This document shows, one piece after another, positions 31,255 through 32,459 of a stretch of 64,000 bases of DNA; position 1 is the stretch's first letter; each line of letters opens with the position of its first letter. The notes beneath the pieces are model-generated. The model saw only the letters and a list, made by a program, of their open reading frames with translations. It was not told where the DNA came from and did not search any database. The translations under genes were made by a program, and so were the position numbers. Source of the DNA: Anadara kagoshimensis (lineage: Eukaryota > Mollusca > Bivalvia > Arcoida > Arcidae). The stretch spans positions 12,139,353 to 12,203,352 of the forward strand of contig CM037870.1 of assembly GCA_021292105.1 (NCBI GenBank). Direction: 5' to 3'.

Positions 31255-32090
31255 CAGTTATCTAAGGTTTTCAGTCTGTCAATGAAAAATGAAGTAAATT
31301 AAGAGAAACTGATCCTGCACAGCTAGGTATCTTAAGTTTTCAGTCTATCCATGAAAACTGAAGAAAATTTGGAAAGATATACTGTATAGTGTGATCCTGC
31401 ATAGAAAAAGCTATAACAAGTTTTCAGTCCATCCATGAAAAGTGAAGAAAAATAAGAAGGACTGTTTAGCATGATCCTGCATAGCTTAAAGTTATCTTAA
31501 GTTTTCAGTCTATCCACGGAAACTGAAGAAAAATATTAAGAGCTGCCTAGTATGATCTTGCACTTCTAGTTATTTTAAGTTTTTAGTCTATCCTGGAAAA
31601 AACAAGAAAAATATGAAAAACTGTGTAAAAGAAGCAAAGACTTAAATTACTGAAAAAGAGAGCTAGTTTAATCTTAAGTTCTCAGTCTATTCATGAAAAC
31701 TGAAGAAAAATCAGAAAGACAGTGTAAAAGAGACAAAGAGTGAAATTACTAAAAACAGAGGAACAAGTGTTAACATACCAGGCTTACTCTAGTTGTTTGA
31801 CTTTTTGTTATACATGTACAAGTATTGCCTGCCAGAGAGCTTAGTATGATTCTACATGTACAGTTATTTTAAGTTTTCCAGTCTATCCATGAAAAACAAG
31901 ATCGCGTAAAAGAGACAAAGTGTAAAATAACTTTTAAAAAAGAGGAAAAAAGAACAAGTGCATGCTACAAGGCTTACTTTAGCTGCTGTTTGTCTTTTTG
32001 TTTTATTGCTTGGCAGAGAGCTTAGTTTGACTCTTACACTTGTACAGTAATTTTAAAGTTTTCAGACTATCCATGAAAAATGAAGAAAAA
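31255..32090 (+). repeat. Degenerate tandem array upstream of and overlapping ACK exon 1
   Basis: Eight diverged copies of a core like TTTTCAGTCTATCCATGAAA followed by ACTGAAGAAAAA, near 31267, 31332, 31417, 31498, 31575, 31676, 31870 and 32055. Several are also followed by GTGTAAAAGAGACAAAG, and some by GCCAGAGAGCTTAGT. Spacing is 65-190 bp. The last copy runs into exon 1 and supplies its start codon and first codons. Confidence 0.85.
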
Positions 32091-32459
32091 TAAGAAAGAT
32101 TGTGTAAAAGAGACAAAGAATAAAATAAGTAAAAAAGAGGAGAAAAATAACAAAAAATCTTGTGTAAAATTAGATAACGATATTATTGGTGATAGGATAG
32201 ATAAAAATGACTGTTTGACTTCTGATAAAACGGATGGGATTTTAGGTCATAAAAACGATCATTTGATTAACGGGATTAGATGTGATGATCGAAAACAAGT
32301 GAATTATTTGTTAAATTGTGATAAATTGGACTGTGTTACTGATCATTCTGAGCACTATAAAACAATTAGTGAACTTAGTACAACTGTGCAAGGCGGTACT
32401 TGTAGTAGTAACAAAGTTAAAGATGGATCTAGTACTAACATTGAACAGGTAGCTTACAG
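32080..32459 (+). CDS. TNK2: ACK exon 1: lysine/aspartate-rich N-terminal extension
   Basis: Encodes residues 1-126 plus two bases of Ser127. An in-frame TGA at 32074-32076 lies just before the ATG at 32080, which has A at -3, so this is the first possible Met of the frame. The exon ends CAG|GTAATT and joins in frame to the SAM exon. The peptide is low in hydrophobics, begins with a Lys/Glu-rich stretch and continues with Asp/Cys/Asn-rich sequence; no domain is recognised. Known ACKs start close to the SAM domain, so this may be lineage-specific. It could also be a 5' UTR exon with translation starting at 33504; the open frame, donor and matching phase favour coding. Confidence 0.65.

Follow-up and report, generated by a model that had tools for sequence, protein, structure and literature searches.

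In the stretch of Anadara kagoshimensis DNA analysed here (64,000 nucleotides, the window), a gene for a non-receptor tyrosine kinase of the ACK type appears to open with a coding exon whose start codon lies inside the last copy of a degenerate tandem repeat. We hold, with somewhat more belief than doubt, that positions 32080-32459 would represent a real coding first exon of ACK, fast-evolving and weakly constrained, whose start overlaps the repeat and which has decayed in a second copy of the locus. What is observed is a tandem repeat, an open frame, splice signals in phase and, between the two copies, purifying selection acting codon by codon. If the gene is transcribed and spliced as these signals suggest, an ACK (TNK2-type) mRNA joined from 32459 to 33479 would carry about 135 additional residues in front of the SAM domain. 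The features on which this reading is built, in window coordinates, are the following.

32080..32459, plus strand: putative first coding exon of ACK (exon 1), 126 codons plus 2 bases, with its sole in-frame ATG at 32080
32080..32153, plus strand: repeat-derived, Lys-rich part of the exon, within terminal repeat copy c8 (repeat search, self-BLAST, profile)
32154..32459, plus strand: unique part of the exon, matched only here and in the second copy by a genome search that scored the best candidates
32073..32093, plus strand: ATG upstream of the exon and out of frame with it, opening six codons (MKNEEK) that overlap the exon start
32449..32465, plus strand: two candidate donors 11 nt apart, CAG/GTAGCT after 32448 and CAG/GTAATT after 32459
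33479..33605, plus strand: SAM exon of ACK, opening with S-QQSDKDGN and holding Met 33504, with a SAM_TNK match
33496..33507, plus strand: out-of-frame ATG in the context ACAAAGATGG, with the frame ATG GCA ATA TGA, whose stop overlaps Met 33504
38327..38494, plus strand: exon region for the second half of the SAM domain, limits approximate (Pfam, second-copy comparison)
42932..43057, plus strand: exon region resembling the kinase glycine loop, recognised by eye, without a Pfam match when taken alone, conserved in the second copy
50409..50654, plus strand: kinase-domain exon region, limits approximate (Pfam, structure-chain matches, second-copy comparison)
57990..60062, plus strand: long C-terminal ACK exon region with a UBA-like match

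The gene has features in common with ACK/TNK non-receptor tyrosine kinases such as human ACK1/TNK2: a SAM_TNK domain, an ACK-type kinase exon and a UBA-like C-terminus. SAM_TNK, N-terminal to the kinase, was matched at residues 145-200 of the peptide joined from exon 1 and the two SAM exon regions (PF22931, E 9.8e-28, 96.4 bits against a cut-off of 25), and also by each SAM exon region alone. The tyrosine kinase domain was recognised in one exon region (PF07714, E 7e-19), for which, among the best 60 of 1006 structure-chain matches, Activated CDC42 kinase 1 provided the best single-kinase chains (E about 2.3e-22), with one EGFR chain scoring higher by way of two matched stretches. For the SAM region, solved structures gave three weak matches, two to Caskin-1 and one to a SAM domain protein, and no ACK chain. 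The long exon region 57990..60062 matched UBA_4 (PF14555, 23.6 bits against a cut-off of 21.8), and no Pfam match to SH3, CRIB or MHR was found in it.

The basic architecture of exon 1 was proposed in an earlier note on this DNA, and most of it held up on inspection. The ATG at 32080, the in-frame TGA upstream of it at 32074 and the open frame running to 32463 are all present, as are the CAG/GTAATT donor after 32459 and a TTTTCAG acceptor before 33479, and the phase of this junction fits the SAM exon. Once spliced, the message would read SQQSDKDGN, then Met 33504 and then the SAM domain. In human ACK1 the SAM domain presumably begins only a few residues after Met1, which matches the place of Met 33504 here; the gene differs from its human counterpart in the roughly 135 predicted residues added before the SAM domain, which carry no Pfam domain at E 0.1. 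Use of the first donor, after 32448, would end the protein at 126 residues, with a TGA met inside the SAM exon, whereas the second donor is in frame with that exon, so that the pair, 11 bases apart, might act as a switch. The out-of-frame ATG at 33496 sits in a good context just 5' of the canonical Met, and the TGA of its short frame overlaps that Met (ATGA), a layout that suits reinitiation. A message that lacks exon 1, with Met 33504 as its expected start, would meet this ATG first if it retains the 33479 acceptor, while the exon 1 frame reads through it; this speaks, if modestly, for a frame that is normally entered from upstream.

How far openness speaks for coding depends on where one looks. 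Between 32080 and 32459 the three forward frames hold 0, 12 and 31 stops, and shuffling the 380 bases of the exon left some forward frame open in only 2 of 200,000 trials (17 of 200,000 for the 306-base unique part). Dinucleotide shuffles of the local 2.4 kb reached 128 codons on the plus strand in 2 of 1000 cases; when all 64 kb were shuffled in this way, 22 of 40 sequences contained, on one strand or the other, 128 or more consecutive codons free of stops, so that across the window length alone is not significant. Base composition by codon position in the unique part is coding-like (purine 0.71/0.65/0.37, G+C 0.40/0.34/0.22). A codon-usage score trained on the ACK exons was weakly positive for exon 1, at 0.035 per codon, against 0.238 for the long exon and 0.06-0.24 for the three ACK exon regions listed, all of them part of the training set. 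By total score exon 1 ranked third against 134 other open frames of at least 60 codons, the two ahead of it lying in a tandem array, and four tandem-array frames exceeded it per codon. It is on these grounds, the weak codon-usage score, the ease with which long open runs arise in shuffles of the whole window and the frameshift in the second copy, that exon 1 could be read as noncoding 5' untranslated or intronic sequence, open by chance, with ACK starting at 33504. We regard this as unlikely, given the stop counts and an excess of synonymous changes (P 0.002-0.005) that is missing from the other frames.

The encoded tail begins with a Lys-rich head (13 Lys in the first 30 residues) and continues as a polar, probably disordered stretch; judged by mean hydropathy and net charge, the tail as a whole would be unfolded, its value of 0.371 lying on the disordered side of the 0.419 boundary. 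Searches for relatives of exon 1 gave little. A match of the joined peptide to WDCP scored 12 bits, below the cut-off of 25.3, and was set aside, as was membership in a protein family of this genome, for which a protein search returned five matches, of which three fell at the two loci and the others were no better than chance (E 0.97 and 9.1). In the viral and prokaryote collections, 2 and 32 stretches fitted the short patterns and none was confirmed, as expected.

Independent evidence comes from a collinear second copy of the locus on the same contig, about 1.1 Mb downstream (13.24-13.31 Mb; host genome 1.115 Gb). It covers window positions 455-64000 nearly end to end, with unaligned gaps and many large indels; among the blocks listed, which are at least 300 bases long, follow the expected diagonal and exclude large arrays, most show 85-96% identity and a few show 76-82%. 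Since a probe at 12.50 Mb pairs with 13.59 Mb at 80-94% identity, the block would exceed 360 kb if continuous. Whether this second copy arose by true duplication or represents an unpurged haplotype, it is a separate lineage in which exon 1 can be tested; the synonymous divergence of the long exon (0.14) would in our judgement be high for alleles. The ATG, the donor, the acceptor and the junction phase are common to both copies, and in the second none of the five further ACK exon regions that were compared is broken, their proteins being 97.6-100% identical and free of gaps.

The comparison of exon 1 took in 357 aligned coding bases and omitted 21 around a deletion as well as two at the ends. 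The copies differ there by 24 substitutions, distributed 4/6/14 over the codon positions, and 12 of these are synonymous where random placement predicts 5.3 (P 0.00175). With a substitution spectrum derived from the intron the expectation is 5.8 (P 0.0051), and third positions are likewise in excess (P 0.0039), while the same changes read in the other two frames give 4 of 24 synonymous and 2 or 4 stops. Taking the substitutions as independent, and for this one pair of copies, the pattern is that of codon-wise purifying selection (P 0.00175 and 0.0051). It extends to the repeat-derived part, in which 4 of 6 changes over 69 bases are synonymous (P 0.008) and which shows no indel between copies. 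The unique part has 8 of 18 synonymous (P 0.034), a third-position excess that does not reach significance (9 of 18, P 0.10), and a dN/dS of 0.047/0.150 (NG86) or 0.044/0.197 (YN00). Because the synonymous excess is absent in the other frames, exon 1 seems to have evolved as coding sequence while the array upstream of it rearranged, and the earlier note's view of it as protein-coding thus gains independent support, the repeat-derived part included. The upstream array (c1-c7, 31255-32044), compared between the loci, shows 15 indel events at 74% identity, figures to be read knowing that the pairing of copies between loci is uncertain because the array has rearranged. With the repeat-derived part constrained and the array rich in indels, it follows that the copy which opens the frame is constrained codon by codon, whereas its sister copies turn over.

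This selection test cannot tell a tail from a free protein, and the frame of exon 1, left unspliced, would encode 127 amino acids and stop at 32461-32463, one codon past the donor. It might thus be translated and selected as a separate short protein, or as a long upstream frame regulating ACK translation from 33504, a Met that is present in the SAM exon of both copies. The donor, however, stands exactly before that stop, and does so in both copies, the phase joins the SAM exon, and this alternative needs an unspliced or otherwise spliced mRNA; we consider it quite improbable.

Even if exon 1 is a coding first exon of ACK, as we prefer, its hold on the gene would be loose. The second copy carries a 4-base deletion near window 32157-32160, so that the frame from its ATG stops after 27 residues, and its SAM-joining frame has no ATG anywhere in exon 1; the frame is therefore lost in the one related copy found, where translation presumably starts from the old Met, 33504. 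This frameshift argues against an important function of exon 1: with the frame broken in the second copy, the extra tail is probably dispensable and is not essential in both copies. In addition, dN in the unique part (0.047) is about nine times that in the long exon (0.005, with a dS of 0.14 by NG86), and the opening 460 intron bases agree better between the copies than exon 1 does, so that raw conservation does not single out the exon. Taken together, the frameshift, the roughly nine-fold dN and the greater likeness of the intron indicate a tail that is at best weakly constrained and can be lost. The start of the intron (32460-32920, 460 bases) is 96.7% identical between copies against 93.6% for exon 1 and 85.0% for the rest of the intron.

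We now turn to the repeat in which exon 1 begins, the elements of which are listed below.

31193..32153, plus strand: locus-specific degenerate tandem array with eight core-unit copies (Tandem Repeats Finder, self-BLAST, profile)
Core-unit copy starts: c1 31254, c2 31323, c3 31407, c4 31488, c5 31566, c6 31665, c7 about 31861, c8 32045

The eight degenerate copies proposed earlier for 31254-32153 were recovered by repeat search, profile, Tandem Repeats Finder and self-BLAST, and the segment GTGTAAAAGAGACAAAG, said to be common to other copies, was found in them by the repeat search. Long units measure about 190 nt and short ones about 80 nt, and the left edge, near 31193, was set by eye from the resemblance of 31211-31252 to 31996-32037. 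A repeat search without gaps returned seven copies. A profile built from the eight window copies recovers those eight at E 6e-11 to 2.4e-15, which is circular by construction, and also finds five copies at the second locus that are not in the profile (E 1.2e-12 to 1.6e-6). Tandem Repeats Finder scored parts of the array at 293 and 244, and self-BLAST confined it, within the window, to about 31200-32153, with the exception of one 25-base minus-strand match at 57.5 kb. The repeat is more than chance. A dispersed mobile element as its source is not supported, since a genome search with a 431-base query, very common words being skipped, gave nine matches, all at the window locus and its second copy. 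The idea that each repeat copy might be an exon of its own was also set aside: the pyrimidine tract of the copies' TTTTCAG (scored in seven of the eight, copy 5 omitted, with the windows for copies 1 and 2 one base off) reaches 0.47-0.65 against 0.94 at the SAM acceptor, and no donors within the copies were noticed by eye.

Both repeat search and profile place the start of exon 1 inside a repeat unit, and to this extent the earlier proposal that the exon was born from a tandem repeat is correct, as the ATG and the first 24 or so codons belong to the unit. Repeat homology ends near 32153, however, so that some 74 of the 380 exon bases are repeat-derived and about 305, the other 80%, are unique sequence. 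Less can be kept of the claim that CTG or GTG stands at the start-codon site of most copies and ATG in the last. Of the eight copies in the window, three have CTG at this site, one has GTG, two have ATG (c1 and c8) and the remaining two carry no such triplet. Aligned and counted by eye over both loci, the first base of the site is A in 8 of 13 copies, C in 3 and G in 2, the full triplet ATG occurs in 4 of 13, and at either locus the outermost copies that were recognised read ATG. In copy 1 it is followed almost at once by a stop (ATG AAG TAA). The postulated direction, in which C or G changed to A and so created the start codon, is unsupported, A being the commonest base; with ATG present in copy 1 as well, there is no need to assume that a new mutation made the start codon, and a change of C or G to A does not appear to be the likeliest history.

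The same counts would fit an older exon whose head had been copied into a noncoding array, in which case nothing would have been exonised. Such an origin is compatible with coding and competes only over which came first; besides the predominance of A and the ATG in the outermost copies, copies 6 and 7 are open for 30 and 42 codons in the exon register. Against it, copy 5 has a stop in that register, the repeat unit extends 5' of the ATG into other sequence, and changes among the window copies lack a codon pattern (5/3/4 for c8-c6, 4/4/4 for c8-c5, 8/4/4 for c6-c5), and we would put it forward as possible while leaning the other way. Exonisation of repeat DNA, as first suggested, has in its favour a start codon within a repeat unit, but in this unrooted comparison A, or ATG, occurs in several copies at both loci: the exon may have recruited the repeat, or the array may have copied an older exon head. 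More tentatively still in its detail, and with our doubts outweighing our confidence, a single genome may preserve the gain of a kinase N-terminus together with its loss. In that history the start codon and Lys-rich head of ACK would have come from the margin of a locus-specific tandem repeat that is still turning over, selection would have kept them for long enough to imprint a codon signature, and a frameshift in the second copy would later have removed them, strong constraint persisting in the remainder of the kinase.

Returning to our preferred reading, a coding first exon of ACK, its tail might adjust the site or the strength of the membrane recruitment of ACK by the SAM domain. PMC2987765 concludes that human ACK1 depends on its N-terminus to promote membrane localisation and dimerisation, so that adding a basic stretch immediately in front of the SAM domain could conceivably alter this step, by strengthening or redirecting it. 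As to the numbering of the human protein, COSMIC uses an isoform of ACK1 other than the canonical one, according to a legend in PMC10047419. If the junction is true, the locus would show in compact form how a conserved signalling protein gains, tests and loses an N-terminal tail where it borders on repeat DNA, and the presence of both states in the same genome would provide a natural control.

Parallels exist for parts of this arrangement. The mobile-element-derived exon of SUPT16H, as described in PMC3647538, is likewise a non-conserved exon added to an old gene. Unlike exonised mobile elements, the repeat here is found at one locus and its second copy rather than dispersed, only the first fifth of the exon derives from it, and the direction is unproved. 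Indels and tandem repeats in exons for disordered regions, the subject of PMC12457776, resemble our case as repeat-linked, probably structure-less coding sequence with fast turnover; the exons in that work are long internal ones, whereas here a first exon borders a mostly noncoding array. A narrow literature search, judged by titles and the beginnings of abstracts, returned no matching case of exonisation from tandem repeats, which does not imply that none is in print.

Other repeats are present in and around the gene. Two large arrays of 145-nt units lie between the ACK exon regions, at 40186-41668 and 45578-49422, and one stretch of the second locus aligns to both. At 25784-27699 a tandem array with 120-nt units holds minus-strand open frames of up to 238 codons running through the repeats, which may be open by chance and stay so because the repeat period is a multiple of three. 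Many host contigs carry a dispersed repeat some 330 nt long (L018 1464-1796), mostly 89-92% identical among the matches listed.
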